Shown here piece by piece: positions 8,490-64,000 of a stretch of DNA of 64,000 nt. Source of the DNA: Nocardia brasiliensis (lineage in GTDB: Bacteria; Actinomycetota; Actinomycetes; Mycobacteriales; Mycobacteriaceae). The notes under the pieces were generated by a model that searched no databases, was not told the origin of the DNA, and worked only from the letters and a program-made list of their open reading frames with translations. Within the stretch, counting starts at the first letter, position 1, and every line of letters starts with the position of its first letter. Where the stretch lies: positions 7,440,001 to 7,504,000 of the forward strand of contig NZ_CP046171.1 in the NCBI RefSeq assembly GCF_011801125.1. The letters are read 5' to 3'. Both the position numbers and the translations under genes were made by a program.

Positions 8490-9878
8490 ATGACCGAACC
8501 GAGTGCCGCTGCACGCCCGCTCCGCATCGCCATCGTCGGCGCCGGGCCGGCCGGGATCTACGCCGCCGACGCCCTGATGAAATCCGACGCCGAGGTGAGC
8601 ATCGACCTGTTCGAGCGCATGCCCGCGCCGTTCGGTCTGATCCGCTACGGCGTCGCGCCGGACCACCCGCGGATCAAGGGCATCATCACCGCGCTGCACA
8701 AGGTGCTCGACAAGCCGCAGGTGCGCCTGCTCGGCAACATCGACTACGGCACCGACATCACCCTCGACGATCTGCGCACCTTCTATGACGCGGTGATCTT
8801 CTCCACCGGCGCCAACGCCGACCGCGCGCTCGACGTCCCCGGCATCGGGCTGGACGGCTCCTACGGCGCCGCCGACTTCGTGTCCTGGTACGACGGCCAC
8901 CCGGATGTGCCGCGCACCTGGCCGCTGGACGCCGAGAAGGTCGCCGTGCTCGGCGTCGGCAACGTCGCGCTGGATGTGGCGCGCGTGCTGGCCAAGACCG
9001 GTGACGAACTGCTGCCCACCGAGATCCCGCCGAACGTCTACGCGGGCCTGAAGGCCAACAAGGCGATCGAGGTGCACGTCTTCGGGCGGCGCGGCCCGGC
9101 GCAGGCCAAGTTCACTCCGCTGGAACTGCGCGAACTGGACCACTCGCCGACCATCGAGGTCATCGTCGACCCCGAGGACATCGACTACGACGAGGGCTCC
9201 GAGGCCGCGCGCAGACACTCCAAGCAGGTCGACATGATCGCGAACACGCTGGAGCAGTGGGCCATTCGCGACGTCGGCAACCGGCCGCACAAGCTGTTCC
9301 TGCACTTCTTCGAGTCGCCCGCCGAGATCCTCGGCGAGAACGGCAAGGTCGTCGGCCTGCGCACCGAGCGCACCCAGCTCGACGGCACCGGCAACGTCAA
9401 GGGCACCGGCGTCTTCAAGGACTGGGACGTGCAGGCGATCTACCGCGCCGTCGGCTACCTGTCGCAGAACCTGACCAACCTGCCCTTCGACGACCAGGCG
9501 GGCACCGTGCCCAACGAGGCGGGCCGCGTCATCGCCGACGAGAACGCCGACGGTGCCGCCCGCTACATCCCGGCCACCTACGTGACCGGCTGGATCAAGC
9601 GCGGCCCGGTCGGCCTCATCGGCCACACCAAGGGCGACGCCAACGAGACCGTGGCCTGCCTGCTCGACGACAGCAAGGACTTCACCCCGGCCCAGCGCCC
9701 CGAACTGGACGCGGTCACCGAGTTCCTCGAGGGCAAGGGCATCCCGTTCACCACCTGGCAGGGCTGGTACCGCCTGGACGCGCACGAGCGCGCGCTCGGC
9801 GAGCCCGAAGGGCGCGAGCGGGTGAAGGTGGTCGAGCGCGAGGACATGCTGCGCGCCAGCGAGCCGCACAAGGTCTGA
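8490..9878 (+). CDS. fprA: NADPH-ferredoxin reductase (adrenodoxin-reductase type)
   Basis: A 462-residue flavoprotein of the adrenodoxin reductase family that transfers electrons from NADPH to ferredoxins, which then serve cytochromes P450 and iron metabolism. The FAD Rossmann motif IAIVGAGPAGIYAADAL is at residues 13-29, the family stretch FGLIRYGVAPDHPRIKG follows near 49-65, the NADP-binding motif AVLGVGNVALDVAR is near 153-166, and GWIKRGPVGLIGHTKGDA near the C-terminus is characteristic. The start is the ATG at 8490; an earlier TTG would add ten residues without family support. A perfect iron-box palindrome upstream suggests IdeR control. Confidence 0.92.
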   Translation: MTEPSAAARPLRIAIVGAGPAGIYAADALMKSDAEVSIDLFERMPAPFGLIRYGVAPDHPRIKGIITALHKVLDKPQVRLLGNIDYGTDITLDDLRTFYDAVIFSTGANADRALDVPGIGLDGSYGAADFVSWYDGHPDVPRTWPLDAEKVAVLGVGNVALDVARVLAKTGDELLPTEIPPNVYAGLKANKAIEVHVFGRRGPAQAKFTPLELRELDHSPTIEVIVDPEDIDYDEGSEAARRHSKQVDMIANTLEQWAIRDVGNRPHKLFLHFFESPAEILGENGKVVGLRTERTQLDGTGNVKGTGVFKDWDVQAIYRAVGYLSQNLTNLPFDDQAGTVPNEAGRVIADENADGAARYIPATYVTGWIKRGPVGLIGHTKGDANETVACLLDDSKDFTPAQRPELDAVTEFLEGKGIPFTTWQGWYRLDAHERALGEPEGRERVKVVEREDMLRASEPHKV

Positions 9879-9940
9879 GCCACGGCTCGCCCGTAACCGT
9901 CGCGACAGCGAAACTTCGCGTACTGAGGCATTCTGTACAC

Positions 9941-10804
9941 GTGTTCGATGCCCATTTCCACCTCTTCGACCCGCGGTTCCCGCTGGTCGAGAACGAGGGC
10001 TACCTGCCAGACCCGTTCACCATCGCCGACTATCGAAAGCGCATGTCGCGCTTCGACGTCGACGGTGGCGCCGTGGTCAGCGGGTCCTTCCAGGGCACCG
10101 ATCAGACGTATCTGCGGGCCGCCCTCGCCGAGCTCGGCGAGGGCTGGGTCGGCGTCACCCGGCTCGACCTCGACGCCACCGACGAGGAGATCGTCGAGCT
10201 GGACCGCATCGGCGTGCGCGCCCTGCGCTTCAACCTCAAGCGCGCCGCCGCCGACATCACCGGCATGACCCTGCAGGCGCTGCGCGCGCACGACCTGGTC
10301 GGCTGGCACGTCGAGGTCTATATCGACGGCACCATGCTCACCTCGCTGCAGCCGGTGCTGTCCAAGCTGCCCGCGTTCACCATCGACCATCTCGGCATGT
10401 CCGAGGAGGGCCTGCCCTACCTGCTCGATCTGGTCGATCGCGGGGCCAGGGTCAAGGCAACGGGTTTCGGCCGGGTCGCGCTGAACGTCGCCGACACGCT
10501 GCGCCGGATCCACGCGGTCAATCCCGAGGCGCTGATGTTCGGCACCGACCTGCCCGGCACCCGCGCGGGCCGCCCGTTCCAGGATTCCGACGTCGACCTG
10601 ATCTGCGACGTCGTCGGCACCGATATGTTCGCCGTGCTCGAGGACAACGCCCGCGCCTGCTACCGCCTGCCCGCCAAGTCCCGCCCCGTCCCCGAGGACC
10701 CGACCCCCACCCTCCCCCTGCACCGCACCGAACAACCCACCCTCCCCATCCGCCGCGACGCCATCCCCACCCCCGACACCCTCCCCCTCCCGATCATCGA
10801 GTAA
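9941..10804 (+). CDS. Amidohydrolase-2 family metal-dependent hydrolase
   Basis: A 287-residue TIM-barrel hydrolase of the amidohydrolase-related (2-pyrone-4,6-dicarboxylate lactonase-like) group. Metal and catalytic motifs are DAHFHLFDPRF at the N-terminus, WHVEVYIDG, IDHLGM and MFGTDLPGTRAGRPF. The start is GTG immediately before the HxH motif; the substrate is unknown. The last 40 or so residues form a Pro/Thr-rich tail with several TLPL/TLPI repeats not expected in the family. It lies 62 bp downstream of fprA and may be cotranscribed. Confidence 0.82.
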   Translation: MFDAHFHLFDPRFPLVENEGYLPDPFTIADYRKRMSRFDVDGGAVVSGSFQGTDQTYLRAALAELGEGWVGVTRLDLDATDEEIVELDRIGVRALRFNLKRAAADITGMTLQALRAHDLVGWHVEVYIDGTMLTSLQPVLSKLPAFTIDHLGMSEEGLPYLLDLVDRGARVKATGFGRVALNVADTLRRIHAVNPEALMFGTDLPGTRAGRPFQDSDVDLICDVVGTDMFAVLEDNARACYRLPAKSRPVPEDPTPTLPLHRTEQPTLPIRRDAIPTPDTLPLPIIE

Positions 10805-10830
10805 CACTCGGGCACAGGGCTTTTCGGCGG

Positions 10831-11313
10831 TCAGGTGAGGATGGCGCCGGTGAGCCAGACGGCGGTGGCGAGTAGGGCGCCGAGGAGTTCGATCAGCATG
10901 GACAGGCCAACGCCCTCGAGGGCGTGCACTGTTGCCCGCCAAGCCTGTTGGTTGGTGCGGTGGCGGTGGAGTTCGGAAAGGTAAACGCCGAGAACGAATC
11001 CCACGAACAGGCCGACCAGGGGGATGACGAAGAAGCCGACTATGCCGAGGACCGCGCCGAGGAACAGGGAGCGGTTGGCCACGCCCGCGTCCTTCAGTTT
11101 CCGGCCTGGCCAGGTGTATTTGATGATGCCCGAGAGCACGAGCAAGGCCGTGCTGATGCCGAAGACGGTCCATGCGGTGGCACCACCGGTCAGCACGGCC
11201 CAGACCGCGATCGCGCCGAAGATCAGGATGACGCCGGGCAGGATCGGGACGATGATCCCGAGCAGGCCGACGAGGATGACGAGGCCGACCACGACCTCAC
11301 CGGCGACACTCAT
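10831..11313 (-). CDS. DUF456 family integral membrane protein
   Basis: A 160-residue very hydrophobic protein with Gly-rich segments (VGLVILVGLLGIIVPILPG near 9-27, then a second repeat-like half LFLGAVLGIVGFFVIPLVGLF) and a C-terminal helix. The two PILPG/VIPLVGLF-type glycine-zipper halves are typical of DUF456. Function unknown. Its ATG overlaps the stop of a 26-codon upstream ORF as ATGA, the same device as at the rhodanese gene. Confidence 0.82.
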   Translation of the reverse strand: MSVAGEVVVGLVILVGLLGIIVPILPGVILIFGAIAVWAVLTGGATAWTVFGISTALLVLSGIIKYTWPGRKLKDAGVANRSLFLGAVLGIVGFFVIPLVGLFVGFVLGVYLSELHRHRTNQQAWRATVHALEGVGLSMLIELLGALLATAVWLTGAILT

Positions 11314-29508: not shown

Positions 29509-30543
<1,035 letters not shown>

Positions 30544-30851
30544 AGTAAGACCTCCGTGTTGTTGCGGCAAAGACCTATTTTGTCAGCCACTACCCTAGGA
30601 CAGCGGGGTTTCGCCTGGTATCCAGGGAGGCAGACGGAGATCGCGCGGCCGGGTACGCGCGCCGCGCGCGACCGAACGCACAGGTGACCAGGCCGTGCTC
30701 GGCACGGAACCGGCAGATGACCAGCCGGTAGTTTCGCGCACAGCGCGGGCTTTCTCAGCCGAACCCGGTACTGTGGTGCCGGTAATTGCGCCGACAGCTT
30801 GCGATGCGATGCCAAGCGATCAGGTCGGCCCAATCCAGAACAGGAGACCGC
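30544..30851. other. Divergent intergenic region fba/dedA, no recognisable site
   Basis: This 308-bp gap separates the divergent fba and first dedA genes. Apart from GGAGG before fba and CAGGAG before dedA I see no convincing promoter hexamers, palindromes or small genes; some short complementary runs (for example around 30660-30670, GCGCGCCGCGCGC) are GC-rich noise. Confidence 0.5.
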
Positions 30852-31577
30852 GTGATTCTGCTGGCAGCGACAGAATCGGTGACGAGCAACATCGCATTGA
30901 CCCAGTTGCTCGATCCGATGTACCTGCTCACGGAGACGTGGCTGAAGAACGCGGTGCTTCCCGCCATTCTCGCGATCGTCTTCATCGAGACCGGCCTGCT
31001 CTTCCCGATCCTGCCGGGCGACTCGCTGCTGTTCACCGGCGGCCTGCTCGCGGCGTCGACCAATCCCCCGGTGTCGATCTGGCTGCTGCTGCCCGCGGTC
31101 GTCCTCGTCGCCTTCGCCGGTGACCAGTCCGGGTATTGGATCGGTCGCGGCATCGGACCCGCGCTGTTCCACAAGGAGGACACCCGCTTCTTCAAGAAGC
31201 ACTACGTCACCGAGACGCACGAGTTCTTCGAGAAGCACGGGCCCAAGACCATCATCCTGGCCAGGTTCGTGCCGATCGTGCGCACGTTCATGCCGGTGCT
31301 CGCCGGTGTGTCGAAGATGGACTACCGCAAGTTCGTCGCCTTCGACATCGTCGGCGCGATCCTGTGGGGCGGCGGCGTGACGATCTGCGGCTACTTCCTC
31401 GGCAACATCGCCTTCATCCGCGACCACGTCGAGGCCATCTTCCTGCTCATCGTGCTCGTCTCGATCCTGCCCGGCATCTTCGCGGTGGCGAAGCGGCTGC
31501 TCAATCGTGGCGGCGGGGCGCCGGTGGCCGCCCCCGAAGCCGAGCTGACCGTTTCGACCAGCGAGCCGACCCGCTGA
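30852..31577 (+). CDS. DedA family membrane protein, first of a tandem pair
   Basis: A 241-residue SNARE-associated/DedA (VTT-domain) protein. Seen: ETGLLFPILPGDSLLFTGGLLA (the E...PGD signature), YWIGRGIG, and RFVPIVRTFMPVLAGVSKMDYRKF (the conserved Arg-x3-Arg reentrant motif), with four to five membrane helices. DedA proteins are lipid scramblase or flippase-like and needed for membrane and proton-motive-force homeostasis. GTG start with CAGGAG upstream. It ends 4 bp before a second DedA gene; the pair reads as one operon. Confidence 0.9.
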   Translation: MILLAATESVTSNIALTQLLDPMYLLTETWLKNAVLPAILAIVFIETGLLFPILPGDSLLFTGGLLAASTNPPVSIWLLLPAVVLVAFAGDQSGYWIGRGIGPALFHKEDTRFFKKHYVTETHEFFEKHGPKTIILARFVPIVRTFMPVLAGVSKMDYRKFVAFDIVGAILWGGGVTICGYFLGNIAFIRDHVEAIFLLIVLVSILPGIFAVAKRLLNRGGGAPVAAPEAELTVSTSEPTR

Positions 31578-56793: not shown

Positions 56794-56797
56794 CGCA

Positions 56798-56961
56798 ATG
56801 CGCCGCGAACGGGTCGACTACGCACTGATCCCCTCGGCGCCGGCCTGCACACCACCATCAAAACCCTGGTCACCTGGACCGAAACCGACCAGCCCGAAAT
56901 TATCGCCGCCCGCAACGCCTACGACCGCCGCACTACCCCTTCGACCAGGTATCCACCTTGA
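56798..56961 (+). pseudogene. Remnant of an HxlR family regulator (C-terminal piece with frameshift)
   Basis: The stretch reads RRERVDYALIP in one frame, then, after a single-base slip near 56830, LGAGLHTTIKTLVTWTE and ARNAYDRRTT up to a TGA at 56961. Together this is the usual C-terminus of HxlR regulators (VDYxLTPLGxxLxxxIxxLxxWxE). The helix-turn-helix part is absent; the remnant abuts the stop of the FAD oxidase gene. It is a fragment, probably left by deletion. Confidence 0.6.
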
Positions 56962-57016
56962 TCTGCGCCATCGCGTCGAACTAGAAGTCGGTGACGCCGT
57001 CGAGGTGCTTACCTGT

Positions 57017-58561
57017 TCACTCGGACAGGACGCCGAGGGCGCCTTCGGCACTGCGGGCCGCGGTCAGGCAGGCGATGGTGGTGAACTGGTCGGCCAGCGG
57101 GTGACGGGCACGGGAGCGCCACTTGTGCACCGCGGCCGCGGCCTGTTCGCGCTGCGTCGCGGGTGCCGCGTCGACCGGCAGACCGAGGCGCAGGTGTGGC
57201 GCGACGCCTGAGCCGCCGATCAGACGGTGCAGCTCCGCCAGATCCTCTGGCGGCAAGGACAATTCGTCGGTACGCAGCCGCCCGAGCAACCGCAGCTCGG
57301 CGAAGCCGTGCACGTCGGCCAGCAAGGTGCGCACTCGGGGCAGCAGCGCGTCGGCCTCGCTGCCCGGGTAGGCGCTCAGCACTCGGGCAAGCGCGGTGAG
57401 TGCCGAGTGCGCCTTGAGCTGGTCGGCCCGCTGGCCGAATTGCACGTCGAGCACCGAGCGCAGCTCGTCCACCCCGCTGCGCGCAGTCAATTCCGCGGCA
57501 AGCGTGGCCGAATCACGCACCCCGAGCCGAACCAGGGTGACCGCCATCCGAATTCCGAACAGACCGAACCGCTCGGCGAGCTGCGCGCGGACCTCGGGCA
57601 GCACCGGCAACGCGATATCGGGCCGGGCGAAGCGGTCCGCGGACAGCAAAGCCACGCTCAACTCCTCGACCGGCACGCCGGCCAGCGCTTCGAACGCCGC
57701 GTACTCCTGCTGCCGCAGCGTCGCGGCCGCGAACGCGAGCAACCCCGCGACCGGAATCACCGCCTGGCACAAGCCGGTCCGCTCCAACTCCCCCGCGAAA
57801 CGCGCGGCGACCTCACGCGCGGAATGCAACGCGTCGATCCGGCCCGCGCCGATCTCGTCGGCCCGCGAGACCACGCCGACCACGCCCAGCGGGCCCGAAA
57901 CACCCGAGGCCGCACCGGTTCCCGCGCCGACCCGCTCCAGGAATCCCACATCGGCCGCGTCGAGTCTGCGCAGCAGATAGACCACCGCGTCGGCGCCGGG
58001 GAGCGCGGGCCCCGCCTCGGCCCGCGAAGACTCCGCACCCGGCGTGAGCAATCGGGCCGTACGCTGCGACACCTCCCGCGACAGCGACGAGGTGCCCGGC
58101 GTATCGATGATCGTGGTGTGCGCCAGCGCCGCCGCGGGCCATTCGACCTCCAGGTGGTCGACCTCGCGCGGGGCGGGCGTGTGCCACCGTAATCGCTCCA
58201 GGTCGAAACTCAGCCCGTGCGTGCCGCTGCCGCGGCGCACCACCACGTTGGCGCGGGCGCCGTCGCGGGCGTGCGCGGTGACGCTCGGCGTCGAGCCGTA
58301 CCGATACCAGGTGACCACCCGGGTGCACTCGGTCGCGTCGGTCGGCGCGATGTCCTGGCCGACAAGCGAATTGAGCAGCGTGGACTTGCCCGCCTTCAGC
58401 GACCCGGCCAGCGCGATGCGCAGGGGCTGGTCGAGTCGCCCCGCGCAGTCGGCGAGCAGCGCGCGCGGCTGCGGCCGGTCCGCGAGGGCCGCCCGTGCGG
58501 CGCCGACCAACCGGTGCGCCTCGGCCACGATTCCCGGTGTCGCGCCGACCTCTCGTGTCAC
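57017..58561 (-). CDS. iniC: Dynamin-like GTPase IniC
   Basis: A 514-residue GTPase: G1 AGSLKAGKSTLLN near 52-64, G3 DTPGTSS near 152-158, G4-like SRADE near 234-238, then helical domains. It lies second in the iniA-iniC pair, its GTG overlapping the iniA stop by 4 bp. In M. tuberculosis iniBAC is induced by cell-wall inhibitors (isoniazid, ethambutol); IniA was shown to be a bacterial dynamin-like membrane-fission protein and IniC is a relative. The long N-terminal P-loop and dynamin-like helices here fit that picture. Confidence 0.88.
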   Translation of the reverse strand: MTREVGATPGIVAEAHRLVGAARAALADRPQPRALLADCAGRLDQPLRIALAGSLKAGKSTLLNSLVGQDIAPTDATECTRVVTWYRYGSTPSVTAHARDGARANVVVRRGSGTHGLSFDLERLRWHTPAPREVDHLEVEWPAAALAHTTIIDTPGTSSLSREVSQRTARLLTPGAESSRAEAGPALPGADAVVYLLRRLDAADVGFLERVGAGTGAASGVSGPLGVVGVVSRADEIGAGRIDALHSAREVAARFAGELERTGLCQAVIPVAGLLAFAAATLRQQEYAAFEALAGVPVEELSVALLSADRFARPDIALPVLPEVRAQLAERFGLFGIRMAVTLVRLGVRDSATLAAELTARSGVDELRSVLDVQFGQRADQLKAHSALTALARVLSAYPGSEADALLPRVRTLLADVHGFAELRLLGRLRTDELSLPPEDLAELHRLIGGSGVAPHLRLGLPVDAAPATQREQAAAAVHKWRSRARHPLADQFTTIACLTAARSAEGALGVLSE

Positions 58562-60420
58562 GAGGCAACCGTACCGACGGGCACACCCGGCAGCGCGGCC
58601 TGCATCGCGTCGGCGTAGCTGTTCAGCTCGGCGACCGCCCGCAACTGGCGTTCCAGCACCGCGCCGCGCTCGGCCCGGCGGGCATGCGCCATGCTCGCCG
58701 CCTCCTGTGCGGCGCGCAGCGAGTCATCGATCGAGCGCAGGCTCCGCTCGGCGATGCCCGCGTAGTGATCGCGCAGCGCGCGGTGGATGCGATGCAACCG
58801 ATCCTTCGATTCCTTGGCCGTGTGGAAGGCGACATCGTCGACGAAGCGGCGCACGGCGGCCTTCGCCTCATTGCGGCGGCGGCCGAGCCTGGCCTGCTTG
58901 TCGTCGCGGAAGGCCTTGCCGCCCACCACGAGCCCGGCGCCGATGGACAGCGGATTCAGCAGTGCGAGCCCGGCGAAGGTGCTGGCGAGCCCGACCATCA
59001 GCACGCCGCCGTAGGACCCGCGCATGCCGACCAGCAGCTTGCTGCCGAAACCGATGTCGGGCTCCAGCTCCGCGAGGGTGCCCGCGCCCGCGTGGCCGCC
59101 TTCGGTGGCGTCCGTGCGGACCGCGGGCAGCTCGACGGCACCGAGCTCGGTGAAGTGCTCGGCCACGCGCTCGGCCAGCTGCCGTGCTCGCGCGTGCGTC
59201 CACAGCAGGTTGTCGCCGATCGCGGTATCGATGGTGCCGGTGAGGTATTCGGCGATCCGGTCCCAGTGCCTGCCCGGGTCGTGCCCGTCGATCCATTCCT
59301 CGGTGGTTCTGGCGATGCCGCGCAACCGATCCCGCAGATCGTGATCGATATCGCCTGCCAGGTCGGTGATCCCGTCCGCCAGCGTCTGCTGCCACGCCGC
59401 GGTACGCCGTTGCAATTCCTGAGCCGCCGCGCGCGCCGCCCGCAGTTCCCGGACCGCGGCGGCACCGCGCGCCGGATCGCGGACCGCGACCAGTTCGCTG
59501 CCCAGCGCCAGCGCCAAATGCTCGGCCGCCGAGCGGATATCGCGCGCCACCGCTGCCCGGGTGGCGAGCTGGTCGCGGGCCACCACCTCCTCGCGCAGGA
59601 ACTGGTAGAGCGGCCCGAACCCGGACTCGAGGCCGAGCTGGCGGTCCTGCGACCGCAACGCGTGACCGCGCAGCAGCGACGACACCGCGAGCATCGGCAC
59701 CTGGACACCGGCCCTGGCCAGATGCGCGCGATCGGCCTCGTATACCTGTCGCCAATGCGGATAGAGGTCGGTCTTGGTGACCAGAAGCGCCACCGTGGGG
59801 CACAATTCGCGGACCTGGCGCAGGAAGGCGAGCTCGGGCTCGGTGAGTTCGGTGGACGCGTCGGTGAGCACAAGCACCGCGTCGGCGGCGGGCACCATGC
59901 CCAGGACGCTTGCCGCGTAAGAACTTCCGTGTCCGCCGACACCCGGGGTGTCGACCAGGACGATGCCGTCGGCAAGCAGCGGGTTCGGCACCTCGAGTTC
60001 CACTCGCAGGATCCGGCGCCCCTGCGCGAGCGGGGACCGCGCGGTGAGACCGCCGATGTCCGCGATCGGCACCGCGACCCGGGACTGTGGGCCGCCACCG
60101 TCGCCGCCTGGCGCGGCGAGCACCAACTCCGCCTTCGGCGCTGGACCGTGCGCGAGCACCGTAGTGATGGTGGTGGTCACGCCGTCGCCCACCGGGCAGA
60201 TCTCCAGATCGAGCAGTGCGTTGACGAATCGACTCTTGCCCTGATCCAGCAGTCCGGCGACGACGATGCGCCGCCGCGGGTCCCGGACCCGCTCGGCCGC
60301 CGCCTCCAGGCGGCCGACCAGATCGGTGCGCCCCGCGGCCCGCGCCGCCGCGATGGTTTCGCCGAGTACCGCGAGCAGCGGTACCGCCGGTGCGGTGGCG
60401 TTCGGTGTTGGCGTCCCCAT
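58558..60420 (-). CDS. iniA: Dynamin-like GTPase IniA
   Basis: A 620-residue dynamin-family protein: G1 GLLDQGKSRF (56-65), G3 DTPGVGG (157-163), G4 TKTD (215-218), stalk helices, a hydrophobic insert near 475-520 (GGVLMVGLASTFAGLALLN, then SIGAGLVVGGKAF) that probably embeds in the membrane as a paddle, and a long coiled C-terminus. The ATG at 60420 fits the length of the mycobacterial protein (about 640). It lies between iniB-like and iniC genes, so isoniazid/envelope-stress-induced expression is expected by analogy, not shown here. Confidence 0.9.
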   Translation of the reverse strand: MGTPTPNATAPAVPLLAVLGETIAAARAAGRTDLVGRLEAAAERVRDPRRRIVVAGLLDQGKSRFVNALLDLEICPVGDGVTTTITTVLAHGPAPKAELVLAAPGGDGGGPQSRVAVPIADIGGLTARSPLAQGRRILRVELEVPNPLLADGIVLVDTPGVGGHGSSYAASVLGMVPAADAVLVLTDASTELTEPELAFLRQVRELCPTVALLVTKTDLYPHWRQVYEADRAHLARAGVQVPMLAVSSLLRGHALRSQDRQLGLESGFGPLYQFLREEVVARDQLATRAAVARDIRSAAEHLALALGSELVAVRDPARGAAAVRELRAARAAAQELQRRTAAWQQTLADGITDLAGDIDHDLRDRLRGIARTTEEWIDGHDPGRHWDRIAEYLTGTIDTAIGDNLLWTHARARQLAERVAEHFTELGAVELPAVRTDATEGGHAGAGTLAELEPDIGFGSKLLVGMRGSYGGVLMVGLASTFAGLALLNPLSIGAGLVVGGKAFRDDKQARLGRRRNEAKAAVRRFVDDVAFHTAKESKDRLHRIHRALRDHYAGIAERSLRSIDDSLRAAQEAASMAHARRAERGAVLERQLRAVAELNSYADAMQAALPGVPVGTVAS

Positions 60421-60472
60421 CGCGGACTCGACCTCTTTCGGTTGGGCGGAACGGTTTTCAGCGGGGCGGTGA

Positions 60473-62101
60473 TCAGTGCAGCAACGCGTCGCCACCCAGA
60501 TCGGTGCCCCCGGTGCCGTCGAGACCCGCGTCCGCGTGCGTGCCGGCGAACAGTCCGGTGTTCGCCGAGCTGTCCAGCCCCGAACCGAACGCGCTCGACA
60601 CATCCAGTGCTGACCAGGCATTCGCCGTGCTGCCGACAGTTCCGTCGATGCCGGCCCCGGTGTCCACCGCACCGTGCGCGGCGGAGTCGAGCGAACCACC
60701 CAGTCCCGCAGAAGAATCCAGCGCACCATGCGCGGCGCCGCCGAGGCCGGTGTCCACACCGCCGCTGAGGTTGCCACCCGCATCGACTGAGCTGTTGAGC
60801 GCGCCACCCGAGTTCACCGCGCCGCCGAGCGAACCACCCAGATTCGCACCAGCATCCACCGCGCTGCCGAGATTCCCAACGGCATCCACCGTGTTGCCCA
60901 GCAAACCACCAAGGCTCCCACCGGCGTCCACCGTGCTGCCAAGCGAACTCCCAAGGCTCCCACCGGCGTCCACCGCGCTGCAAAGGTTTCCACCAGCGTC
61001 CACAGCGCCGCCGAGCGAGCCGCCAAGGCTCCCCACGGCATCCACCGTGTCGCCCAGCGAGCTACCAAGATTTCCACCGGCATCCACCGCACCGCCGAGT
61101 GAACCGCCCAGTCCGGCAGTGGTATTCACCGCGCCGTCGAATCCGGAGGACAGGTCGGCACCCAGCCCGGTGGCCGAGCCGATGCTCGTGGACAGTCCCG
61201 TCTCCAGCCCGGTCGCCGCCTGCGCACCCGCGTCCAGTCCGGCACCGAGCCCGGTTTCCAGACCGGTGCCCACCTGCGCGCCCGCGCTGACGGCGCGGTC
61301 GAGTCCGGCCGAGAGTCCGCCGCCGAGACCGGCGCCCGCGTCGGTGACCGCACCGAGGCTCGAGCCCAGACCGGTCGCCAGGTCAGCACCGAGGTCGGCG
61401 CCCGCGCCGAGCGAGCCGTCGAGACCGGCGGACAGATCGGTCGCGGCATGCGCGGCGCCTTGCAGACTCGAATTCAGATCCGCGCCGAGCCTGCTCTCCA
61501 GTCCGGCGGACAGGCTCGTCTCCAGGCCCGTGCCGACCTGCAACGCGCTGTTCACCGCGCTCTGCAGTCCCGTGCCGAGATCGGCACCCACCTGCACGCC
61601 CGCGCCGAGGCCGGACACCGCCCGTGCACCCGTGTCGAGCGCGCCGCCGACCGCGTCGGCCAGCTCGGCGCCCGCGGTGGCGGCCGTCTGCAGCCCGGTC
61701 TGCAATCCCGTGCCGAGGTTCGCGCCGAGCTGCAGTCCGGTGCCGATCGCGGTGTCCAGGCCCGCGCCGAGATCGATGTCGGCCTGCCCCCCGAGATCGA
61801 TGCCGAGACCGGCGTTCAACCCGGCGTTCGCGGCCGCGGCGGCGCCGACGGCACCCACCGCGCCGAGCCCGGCGGCGGCACCGGTCTGGGCGCCCGCGGC
61901 GACGATCGCGGACAGCTGCGAGCCACCCGCGACCAGTGCCGACTCGGCGACCATCGGGGCGACGGCGGCGATGTCCTCCGGTGTCACCGTGGGCAATCCC
62001 GCGGCCACGAGCGCCTGCGCCGGGTTGGCGCAGTAGCCGACCGCGGCCTCATGATCGCGAAGCAAATTCAGGATGAACTCGAGAATCGCGTTGGGTGTCA
62101 T
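60473..62101 (-). CDS. iniB: IniB-like long Gly/Ala/Leu repeat protein
   Basis: A 542-residue protein. An IniB N-terminal domain (first about 60 residues: NAILEFILNLLRDHEAAVGY, then NPAQALVAAGLPTVTPEDI) is followed by a very long Gly-, Ala-, Asp-, Leu- and Ser-rich region built of short units such as DAGGSLGSSLGSTV and TGLETGLGAGLDAG. Exact DNA repeats of 25 bp with 42-bp period occur within it. Mycobacterial IniB is also Gly-rich and thought to be surface-associated, but is of different repeat type. No signal peptide is visible. The ATG at 62101 lies 9 nt after CAGGAG; a second ATG at 62110 sits on the site itself. Confidence 0.85.
   Translation of the reverse strand: MTPNAILEFILNLLRDHEAAVGYCANPAQALVAAGLPTVTPEDIAAVAPMVAESALVAGGSQLSAIVAAGAQTGAAAGLGAVGAVGAAAAANAGLNAGLGIDLGGQADIDLGAGLDTAIGTGLQLGANLGTGLQTGLQTAATAGAELADAVGGALDTGARAVSGLGAGVQVGADLGTGLQSAVNSALQVGTGLETSLSAGLESRLGADLNSSLQGAAHAATDLSAGLDGSLGAGADLGADLATGLGSSLGAVTDAGAGLGGGLSAGLDRAVSAGAQVGTGLETGLGAGLDAGAQAATGLETGLSTSIGSATGLGADLSSGFDGAVNTTAGLGGSLGGAVDAGGNLGSSLGDTVDAVGSLGGSLGGAVDAGGNLCSAVDAGGSLGSSLGSTVDAGGSLGGLLGNTVDAVGNLGSAVDAGANLGGSLGGAVNSGGALNSSVDAGGNLSGGVDTGLGGAAHGALDSSAGLGGSLDSAAHGAVDTGAGIDGTVGSTANAWSALDVSSAFGSGLDSSANTGLFAGTHADAGLDGTGGTDLGGDALLH
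60909..60975 (-). repeat. 25-bp direct repeat with 42-bp period inside iniB
   Basis: CCAAGGCTCCCACCGGCGTC plus CACCG occurs at 60909-60933 and again at 60951-60975. The period is 42 bp, that is 14 codons, so the unit is in frame and tandemly repeated within the coding region. Similar diverged copies extend over about 60800-61100. Confidence 0.75.
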
Positions 62102-62224
62102 CGGAAACATCTCCTGAGAGCTGGCGGACCTTCACGATCCGCGTCGTTGGAATGAATTTCACGCTAGGGGCGCAACTCGTTACGCGGAACGGGGCAGGCC
62201 CCTACTGCTCCCTCGGCGCGGCCG

Positions 62225-62269
62225 TTAGGGGCGGGGTCGGCATTAGGGGAATTTCCCCGCGAGTTCCCC
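62225..62269. promoter_or_regulatory. Operator-like repeats in the iniB/Hsp70-like divergent region
   Basis: The 294-bp gap between iniB and the Hsp70-like gene carries two TTAGGGG copies (62225-62231, 62243-62249; 18-bp spacing), a perfect GGGGAATTTCCCC palindrome (62246-62258) and a further TTCCCC 11 bp after the palindrome's own (62264-62269). The 11-bp phasing of half-sites suggests cooperative binding on one helix face. I see no clear promoter hexamers. Confidence 0.5.
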
Positions 62270-62395
62270 AACGCAGGTAACGGCGGACCGCCAGCTACCG
62301 AAACAACTGATGCATCGGCGTGCCCGCACTGCCTTTCGCACCCGGACTACACAGCAGCGAGACCCGACCACACAGTTTTCGAACGGGGTTCACGA

Positions 62396-64000
62396 ATGAC
62401 ACAGCGTGTGGCGCTCGGCATCACTGTCGGAGCGTCGAATTCGGTCGCCGTGGCGGCCGCGGGGGATGAACGAGACAGCGTGCGCACGCGGCCGAGCGTG
62501 CTACGGCTCAGCCCCGACGCTCCGCCCGCGCTCGGCGCCGCCGCGCACGGCAGCGCACCGCACGCCCGCGAGGTATTACTCGAAGGATTCCTGGCCAGGG
62601 TCGGCGACCCGGTCGACATGCTGGCCGAGGACGGCTCCTCGCATTCGGCCGCCGATCTCGTCGCGACCGCGGTGAATTGCCTGATGAACGAGGCGGACGC
62701 CGAAGCACGATCGACCGTGGCGTGTCACCCGGCGTGGTGGTCGGCGCACACCGTCGAGATCCAGCGCACCGCTCTGGCGCGCGCGGGCCTGGACGAGCTG
62801 ACCCTGGTACCGGAACCGCTCGCCGCCCTGCGCTGGCTCACCGCGACCCACGGTCCGCGTGCCGACGGCGCGGTCGTCGTCTACGACCTCGGCGCCACCG
62901 GTCTCACCGTCTCGGTATTGCGCACCGGCGATCATGCCGGGCTACTCGGCACACCGGCCCGGAGCACCGACATCGCCGGTGCGGAATTCGATCTGCGCAC
63001 CATGCGCTACGTGCTGGCAAACGTTACCGACGCAAATGATTTGGACCCGTTCGATCCCGCGGTGGAGCGCGAATTGGCGACATTGCGCGATCGCTGCCGA
63101 ACGGCGAAAGAAGAGCTGTCGATAAATACCGCGACGGTCGTTCGGGTGCGCTTGAATCCGGCCGACGCGCACAGCACCAATGTGCGCCTGGTCCGTGGCG
63201 AGCTGGAGGAACTGCTCCGCGCGCCGCTGCTGGCCTCGACCGAGCTGATCCGGGACGCCGTGCACCGGGCAGGCCTGGACATCGGCGACCTGGATGGCGT
63301 CCTGCTCACCGGCGGCGGTAGCGCGATACCGCTTGTCGCCGAACTGATCTCGTCCGAGTTCGGGCTTCCGGTGCTGGCCGCGCCCGCACCGGCGCAGACC
63401 AGCGCGCACGGCGCGGCGCTGCTGGCCGCCGACCGCACCGCCGCAGGCGCGGCACCCGCGTCGGCGCCCGAAGACCTGCCGACCGTGGCGCTTTCGACCA
63501 CGCCCGCGGTGGCACCTGCCTTGTCCGGCGCACCCGCGCTGCCAACGGCGGTACCCGCGCGGCGCGGTGGCAGGCGCCGGATGGCCGTCGTCGCGGGCGC
63601 GGTCGTCGTGCTCGGCCTGCTCGCCACCGGCACCGTCGCGATCGGCACCGGCATCCAGTCGAATCCGGGCACCACCGCGCCGTCGACCCCCGCACGGGCC
63701 GGTGAGGTCGCCGCGACCTTCGGCCCGGCGCCCGATGCCCCGCGCGACCCGAACACCCCGGTCGCCGTGGTGGATTCCGCGCCACCGAGCGCGACGCACG
63801 CGAAAGCCGAGGCAGGGCAACCCGCTATCCCGCCGGCCGCCGCGGTGGCCGTCGTGGACAGCCGCCCCGCCGCCGAGCAACCCCCCGCGCCGCCCGCGGA
63901 ACCCGGTGCGGCGCAACCGGCCCCGCCCGCACCGCCGCAACCGGGCCCCGCGCCCGCTCCGGCGCCGGCCCCAGCACCGCAGCAGCCGCCGCCCGCCCCC
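62396..64000 (+). CDS. Membrane-anchored Hsp70-like protein (cut by window end)
   Basis: At least 535 residues; the C-terminus is beyond the window. An Hsp70-type ATPase domain covers about 1-350: phosphate-1-like GITVGASNSVAV near 8-19 (Asp of DnaK replaced by Thr), phosphate-2-like VVYDLGATGLTV near 161-172 and adenosine-like LLTGGGSAIPLV near 302-313. No substrate-binding domain follows: instead a short linker with TVALSTTP, one transmembrane helix (about 396-418, MAVVAGAVVVLGLLATGTVA) and a Pro/Ala-rich tail outside. Such proteins are seen near envelope and secretion loci in actinobacteria. Divergent from the iniBAC-type operon. Confidence 0.8.
   Translation, partial: MTQRVALGITVGASNSVAVAAAGDERDSVRTRPSVLRLSPDAPPALGAAAHGSAPHAREVLLEGFLARVGDPVDMLAEDGSSHSAADLVATAVNCLMNEADAEARSTVACHPAWWSAHTVEIQRTALARAGLDELTLVPEPLAALRWLTATHGPRADGAVVVYDLGATGLTVSVLRTGDHAGLLGTPARSTDIAGAEFDLRTMRYVLANVTDANDLDPFDPAVERELATLRDRCRTAKEELSINTATVVRVRLNPADAHSTNVRLVRGELEELLRAPLLASTELIRDAVHRAGLDIGDLDGVLLTGGGSAIPLVAELISSEFGLPVLAAPAPAQTSAHGAALLAADRTAAGAAPASAPEDLPTVALSTTPAVAPALSGAPALPTAVPARRGGRRRMAVVAGAVVVLGLLATGTVAIGTGIQSNPGTTAPSTPARAGEVAATFGPAPDAPRDPNTPVAVVDSAPPSATHAKAEAGQPAIPPAAAVAVVDSRPAAEQPPAPPAEPGAAQPAPPAPPQPGPAPAPAPAPAPQQPPPAP

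Follow-up and report, generated by a model that had tools for sequence, protein, structure and literature searches.

The window analysed here is a stretch of 64,000 nucleotides from a single-contig 7.95 Mb Nocardia genome. It ends inside a gene for an Hsp70-like protein. This gene is divergent from an iniB-iniA-iniC (iniBAC) operon, and its last 8 bp are shared with the next gene, which encodes an IniR-like protein. All coordinates are those of the window, or window equivalents beyond position 64000. With moderate confidence, we propose that the Hsp70-like protein is a dedicated partner that would control the STAND activator IniR, which in turn would act through TTAGGGGAT repeats. The Hsp70-like protein would be made from the same operon as IniR, and its ATPase-like domain would bind nucleotide with poor or nil hydrolysis. 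We infer that this domain contacts IniR and, according to nucleotide state, holds or releases it, with the state of the envelope also being read by those forms that possess a membrane helix and an external tail. The freed IniR would bind the direct repeats upstream of iniB and switch on the IniB-IniA-IniC membrane-remodelling proteins. As for the mode of control, the sequence would fit holding or activation of IniR equally.

The Hsp70-like gene encodes 572 amino acids and occupies 62396..64000 of the + strand, running on to 64114, where it stops 114 bp past the window. The iniR-like gene (64107-66719, same strand) has a good ribosome-binding site; it was missed by the original prediction, an earlier note made from the letters of the window, because of the window edge. 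In the profile search, its product matched NCBIfam NF038181 (reg_ATPase_IniR) at 490.9 bits (E 8e-147) over profile positions 3-824 of 827. The protein has a C-terminal LuxR-type helix-turn-helix (HTH) domain (GerE, 52.5 bits), and its AAA match lies under the cut-off of that profile. Because 490.9 bits falls short of the NF038181 equivalog cut-off of 750 bits, we call the gene IniR-like and not an equivalog.

For the conservation of the pair, we surveyed 161 genomes from 30 genera of the family Mycobacteriaceae as defined in GTDB. IniR was found in 86 genomes and 19 genera, and the 750-bit cut-off was passed in six genomes, all of the genus labelled g28, which is Mycobacterium according to its named loci. 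All 86 IniR genomes had an IniA match, and nine further genomes had an IniA match without IniR. An Hsp70-like open reading frame (ORF) was located directly upstream of iniR on the same strand at 78 of the 86 loci, with the two genes overlapping or almost so; six of the remaining loci were cut by a contig end, and two had no Hsp70-like gene upstream. The linkage between an Hsp70-like protein and the dynamins that had been expected in other mycolata is thus conserved, although the immediate operon-level neighbour is iniR and not the dynamin genes. One locus (L055) carries two Hsp70-like ORFs in tandem upstream of iniR. A search for an Hsp70-IniR fusion returned no ORF with both domains above 60 bits in the three sets scanned. 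In the tree, 76 of 77 iniR-linked Hsp70-like proteins fell into one clade with local duplicates from Mycobacterium, with a support of 0.34 at its base, on which we place no weight.

Within Mycobacterium, 66 of the 70 IniR genomes were examined; the Hsp70-like gene was upstream of iniR in 47, absent from that position in 16, and the locus was cut or gapped in three. Among the 80 named loci listed, which overlap with the survey, the gene was upstream in 46 and not in 27, and seven were cut; a Mycobacterium locus containing a run of N was excluded. The 27 loci include M. simulans, M. szulgai, M. gastri and M. gordonae, all slow growers, as well as isolates and metagenome-assembled genomes. The survey points to an old Hsp70-like partner that has been displaced from this position in the slow growers seen. 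In a sample of the order outside the family, 56 genomes had IniR, and 12 of them were inspected. The Hsp70-like gene was directly upstream of iniR in 10 of these 12 loci, nine of the 10 also having a divergent iniB together with iniA. The loci with the pair include those of Micromonospora pattaloongensis and Amycolatopsis arida (identical protein), whose families lack mycolic acids.

The ORF diverging from iniB at 62396 had been described as an Hsp70 ATPase domain that lost its substrate-binding domain and the phosphate-1 Asp and gained a transmembrane (TM) helix and a proline-rich tail, and our analysis agrees with this description throughout. The protein matched PF00012 with 86.5 bits (cut-off 20.6), and the match stops at position 373 of the 599 in the profile, leaving the substrate-binding domain missing. 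Thr replaces the phosphate-1 Asp (GITVG). Hydropathy predicts one TM helix at residues 398-416 (63587..63643, + strand), with RGGRRR before it and a Pro-rich tail of 156 residues after it. The AlphaFold model of residues 1-435 (mean predicted local distance difference test, pLDDT, 80.5) shows the fold of an Hsp70 nucleotide-binding domain (NBD) followed by a helix, with low confidence from residue 358 onward, TM helix included. The closest named relatives of the protein are from Nocardia species (N. brasiliensis, 76% identity). Its tail and IniB are both Gly-rich and of low complexity, and we claim no homology between them.

In the protein of the window, T, L and G stand at the positions of the DnaK hydrolysis residues Asp8, Lys70 and Thr199, and the combination of all three was found in none of the 77 family proteins, one truncated ORF having been omitted from the residue and TM counts. 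Among these 77 proteins, the first position holds Asp once and the third holds Thr four times. Lys70 is present in none of the 77, nor in any of 10 out-of-family relatives, which retain Asp8, although the alignment around Lys70 is weak. Asp194 was kept in 76 family proteins, Glu171 in 59 and Asp201 in 53. The Hsp70-like protein is therefore probably an ATP-binding pseudo-enzyme with impaired hydrolysis, judging by its aligned residues. Ssz1 is known to bind ATP without hydrolysing it. It is a member of the ribosome-associated complex (PDB 6sr6, 5mb9), resembles the window protein in its Hsp70 NBD fold and gave the highest VIA Z, a value tied with those of ordinary Hsp70s. Unlike the window protein, Ssz1 has a substrate-binding domain and is soluble and eukaryotic.

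In all 77 family proteins, the TM helix is preceded by more basic residues than follow it, which predicts an ATPase domain inside and a tail outside. A clear TM helix was found in four of the 10 out-of-family relatives. Since the Micromonospora and Amycolatopsis forms have no TM helix, the conserved core would be the cytosolic domain and not the outside tail. The single-TM Hsp70-like proteins Rv0312 / MSMEG_0692, presumably a paralogue, and Rv2264c are, we assume, related to the iniR-linked protein. The likeness extends to Rv0312 being Pro- and Thr-rich, with one TM helix and an ATP-binding annotation (PMC11898655). Unlike the gene studied here, Rv0312 / MSMEG_0692 and Rv2264c have no described linkage to iniR. 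Further Hsp70-like copies occur elsewhere in the Mycobacterium genomes and may include Rv0312 / Rv2264c.

The control region between iniB and the hsp70-like-iniR unit (62102..62395) measures 294 bp, the size originally stated, when iniB is taken to start at the codon indicated by its ribosome-binding site. Box 1 of the sequence TAGGGG lies at 62165..62170, box 2 at 62226..62231 and box 3 at 62244..62249, all on the + strand, and an inverted box lies on the - strand at 62199..62204. Box 2 is 18 bp ahead of box 3, and this pair is one of two tandem matches found across the entire 7.95 Mb. Scans of the 294-bp region for sigma-70 and terminator signals gave no match. We compared 72 regions between iniB and the Hsp70-like gene (counterparts of 195-377 bp, start sites heuristic), omitting from the intergenic count the six of the 78 pair loci that had no iniB in the stretch. 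The direct repeat CRTTAGGGGAT stands out as their consensus. Of 56 nonredundant regions, 43 contained TAGGGGAT, whereas dinucleotide shuffles predict 0.3. In the sense of the Hsp70-like gene, at least one TAGGGG occurred in 70 of the 72 regions, at least two in 61, and two copies spaced by exactly 18 bp in 36. Over 20,661 bases there were 146 forward and 27 reverse boxes; the remaining 1,361,288 bases had 103, both strands combined. Palindromes and 11-bp phasing had been noted in the shared region; inverted repeats are indeed present in the Nocardia sequence, and the candidate regulatory feature for which conservation was shown is instead the direct TAGGGG repeat.

The orientation of the box is near constant: in the direction of the target gene, it reads ATCCCCTAA. 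Within 350 bp upstream of IniB starts, a box so oriented was present in 272 of 278 cases (645 copies versus 70 opposite), counted, as are all the orientation figures, per locus and not per species, some genomes appearing twice (e.g. L011/L100, L012/L104). This orientation would fit IniR action on iniB, not one promoter common to both units. Tandem boxes are rare genome-wide: in 15 locus-bearing genomes, 28 of 51 matches were inside the locus, and three genomes without the locus had four matches. Outside the family, the box was present in eight of nine iniB/hsp regions. We predict that the TAGGGG repeats are the IniR operator.

An alternative that we regard as unlikely is that the Hsp70-like protein is an effector that joins IniB and the IniA/IniC dynamins in their work at the membrane, and lies near iniR just for co-production. 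It is supported by mycobacterial Hsp70-like genes directly downstream of iniR, 24 of 26 of which carry predicted IniR boxes (51 copies versus 3 opposite) and therefore look co-induced with iniBAC. Hsp70-like genes at other positions had a box in only 1 of 26, 2 of 19 and 0 of 2 cases, and two genes properly upstream of iniR (L030, L055) were left in the group "other, same strand". A copy also stands just past iniC in 18 of the 27 listed loci without an upstream one, several of the other nine stretches stopping short, and the one-TM ATP-binding protein MSMEG_0692/Rv0312 is listed in the FhaA cell-wall elongation interactome (PMC11898655). Cooperation of the Hsp70-like protein with the dynamins, as originally predicted, is on this evidence possible. 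However, iniR is the most constant neighbour, with genes that overlap or nearly so, iniBAC and the Hsp70-like copy upstream of iniR lie on opposite strands, and the TM-less Micromonospora and Amycolatopsis forms suit a membrane effector less.

It is also rather unlikely, in our view, that the TAGGGG repeats are the site of another regulator or a G-quadruplex and not the IniR operator. Two boxes do occur in the stretch printed for M. tuberculosis Rv0339c (iniR) in a table of putative G-quadruplexes (PMC5515968), and HpoR binds a separate palindromic site in the iniBAC promoter (PMC13413693). On the other side, the constant orientation and the 18 bp spacing, which is the commonest (35 of 76 consecutive spacings), suit side-by-side protein binding, and chromatin immunoprecipitation in M. 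tuberculosis placed IniR directly upstream of iniBAC (PMC5760070). The same box is moreover found ahead of an unlinked IniB-domain gene, where the off-locus tandem match of genome G144 lies about 150 bp upstream in the expected orientation. This Mycobacterium gene (L276:3781-4776) encodes an IniB N-terminal domain (60.1 bits, cut-off 40), has its own TTAGGGGATTAGGGG box and is likely a new regulon member. Four other off-locus box sites that were inspected (L277-L280) showed no ini gene.

We consider it very unlikely that general synteny of the dnaK-to-FeS-reductase region has merely kept the Hsp70-like gene in place as a bystander: protease-like genes and an Fe-S reductase are likewise frequent neighbours, and the Nocardia genome has several PF00012 proteins besides DnaK, but neighbours outside the module vary more than the hsp-iniR pair, gene order is kept in other families, and boxes stand ahead of the Hsp70-like copies directly downstream of iniR.

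IniR is a STAND protein (PMC5760070). Partners may restrain proteins of this class, whose switching can depend on ligand and nucleotide. The boxes of the STAND activator MalT are direct and non-palindromic, like the TAGGGG boxes. MalT of E. coli and IniR have in common a layout of ATPase, sensor and LuxR-type HTH (PMC5760070). The partner of MalT is a transport system, whereas the proposed partner of IniR is an Hsp70-like protein and its signal would be envelope damage. In M. marinum and M. tuberculosis, the role of IniR is that of a dedicated iniBAC activator, according to Boot et al. 2017 (PMC5760070), who describe the promoter of the operon as the one with the strongest and most specific induction by isoniazid and ethambutol. 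The Nocardia locus resembles that system in its three effectors and in the kind of activator adjoining them; it differs in that the iniR operon starts with the Hsp70-like gene. For M. smegmatis, the same paper places a dnaK-like gene downstream of iniR, which differs from the rapid growers seen here, and its Fig 2 legend mentions gene insertions in this species.

Several observations weigh against the proposed partnership. According to Boot et al. (PMC5760070), iniBAC is the sole target of IniR in M. tuberculosis, and in both this species and M. marinum nothing but iniB* separates iniR from iniBAC. No Hsp70-like gene is named in the table of their M. marinum loss-of-induction screen (Table 1), two of the listed genes being without a product. 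Since IniR is functional in these two species, which are described as lacking the adjacent gene, an Hsp70-like gene at this position is not obligatory. An upstream Hsp70-like gene was lacking in 16 of the 66 examined Mycobacterium IniR genomes, and six of the 10 out-of-family relatives have no clear TM helix. No tandem box was found at the locus in three of the 15 genomes (G011, G066, G132), and two of the 72 family regions have no TAGGGG in the sense of the Hsp70-like gene. Start sites were heuristic, and most box counts were drawn from loci where the box was found. The link between the Hsp70-like protein and IniR is, moreover, one read from sequence. As the conserved core would be the cytosolic domain and the adjacent gene is not obligatory, the claim of an IniR partner is stronger than that of an envelope sensor.

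Regarding the effectors, the iniBAC operon of the original prediction is present, with the IniB N-terminal domain and the dynamin-like IniA and IniC encoded by three intact genes on the - strand; its extent was overstated, ending at 57017 instead of 56794. The iniC-like ORF (57017..58561) encodes a dynamin-family GTPase of 514 amino acids (PF00350 Dynamin_N, 46.1 bits, cut-off 27). The iniA gene (58558..60420) encodes a dynamin-like GTPase of 620 amino acids (PF00350, 48.2 bits, cut-off 27), which matches the M. smegmatis IniA structure (PDB 6j72) over query residues 17-610 (E 6.3e-167). The iniB gene (60473..62101) has the N-terminal domain (NF038175 IniB_NTERM, 59.9 bits, cut-off 40, E 1.7e-16) followed by Gly/Ala-rich repeats, and tandem repeats of 42 and 114 bp lie within it (60804-61090).

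Duplicates of these genes were also observed. In one genome of the window's genus, two IniA genes (G118:C1:23236-25047 and 29778-31556) lie about 5 kb apart, with 70% and 69% identity to the window IniA. A paralogue of IniA (39% identity) is also encoded at 2.078 Mb of the Nocardia genome itself, where two Hsp70-like genes lie at distances of about 8 and 14 kb; the IniA-like gene (L126:8323-10137) and the two Hsp70-like genes (L127:3464-4810, 9149-11248) are all within about 18 kb. No Hsp70-like gene was near the IniA paralogue in four paralogue-only congeneric genomes (L130-L133), whose stretches reach only 8-9 kb or less per side, so a similar arrangement may exist there. Two other congeneric genomes carry a second, partial IniR-like ORF immediately behind iniR (L051:11340-12935, L057:2809-4392).

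Downstream of iniR in the Nocardia genome, we found a shortened Hsp70-like protein without a Pfam match (L009:10781-11890, window-equivalent 66780-67889), with likeness only in its N-terminal part, then a hydrophobic helix and a Pro-rich tail; similar genes come after iniR in many relatives. Two consecutive trypsin-like proteins (L009:11939-14854), one over and one just under the Pfam cut-off, recur downstream of iniR in many genera. Another Hsp70-like gene with a Pro-rich end (L010:8947-10359, genome 7520947-7522359; PF00012, 37.5 bits) has a neighbour that, by eye, looks like a sugar-nucleotide dehydrogenase.

The operon, the activator IniR and the dnaK-like neighbour in M. smegmatis are already known (PMC5760070). 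In the open-access literature searched, which leaves most subscription papers outside, the hsp-iniR pair is untreated save for the one sentence of PMC5760070 on that neighbour. Relative to this literature, the widespread pairing, its reach beyond mycolic-acid bacteria, the loss of the hydrolysis residues and the predicted operator, found also ahead of Hsp70-like copies, are new. These results bear on the question of how IniR, a cytosolic regulator, learns of damage beyond the membrane. Because induction by trehalose is independent of the only known inner-membrane trehalose transporter, Boot et al. placed sensing in the periplasm and named no protein for it (PMC5760070), and Shetty and Dick proposed ATP as the signal, since induction follows a rise in cellular ATP (PMC6104191). 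A conserved, membrane-spanning and probably ATP-binding partner in the iniR operon is a candidate for both, as a nucleotide-binding gatekeeper in the membrane would read the periplasmic signal and the ATP rise alike. The predicted operator gives a direct test of IniR binding. More tentatively, we suggest a new signalling pair in which an inactive Hsp70-type ATPase would be the nucleotide- and membrane-coupled gatekeeper of a STAND activator. The circuit of Hsp70-like protein, IniR, TTAGGGGAT operator, IniB and dynamins might then be older than the mycolic-acid envelope, because it also occurs in Micromonospora and Amycolatopsis, and might have been rearranged in the slow-growing mycobacteria on which most work on IniR was done. 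With the module present in these two genera, mycolic-acid damage would not be what the system first evolved to counter.

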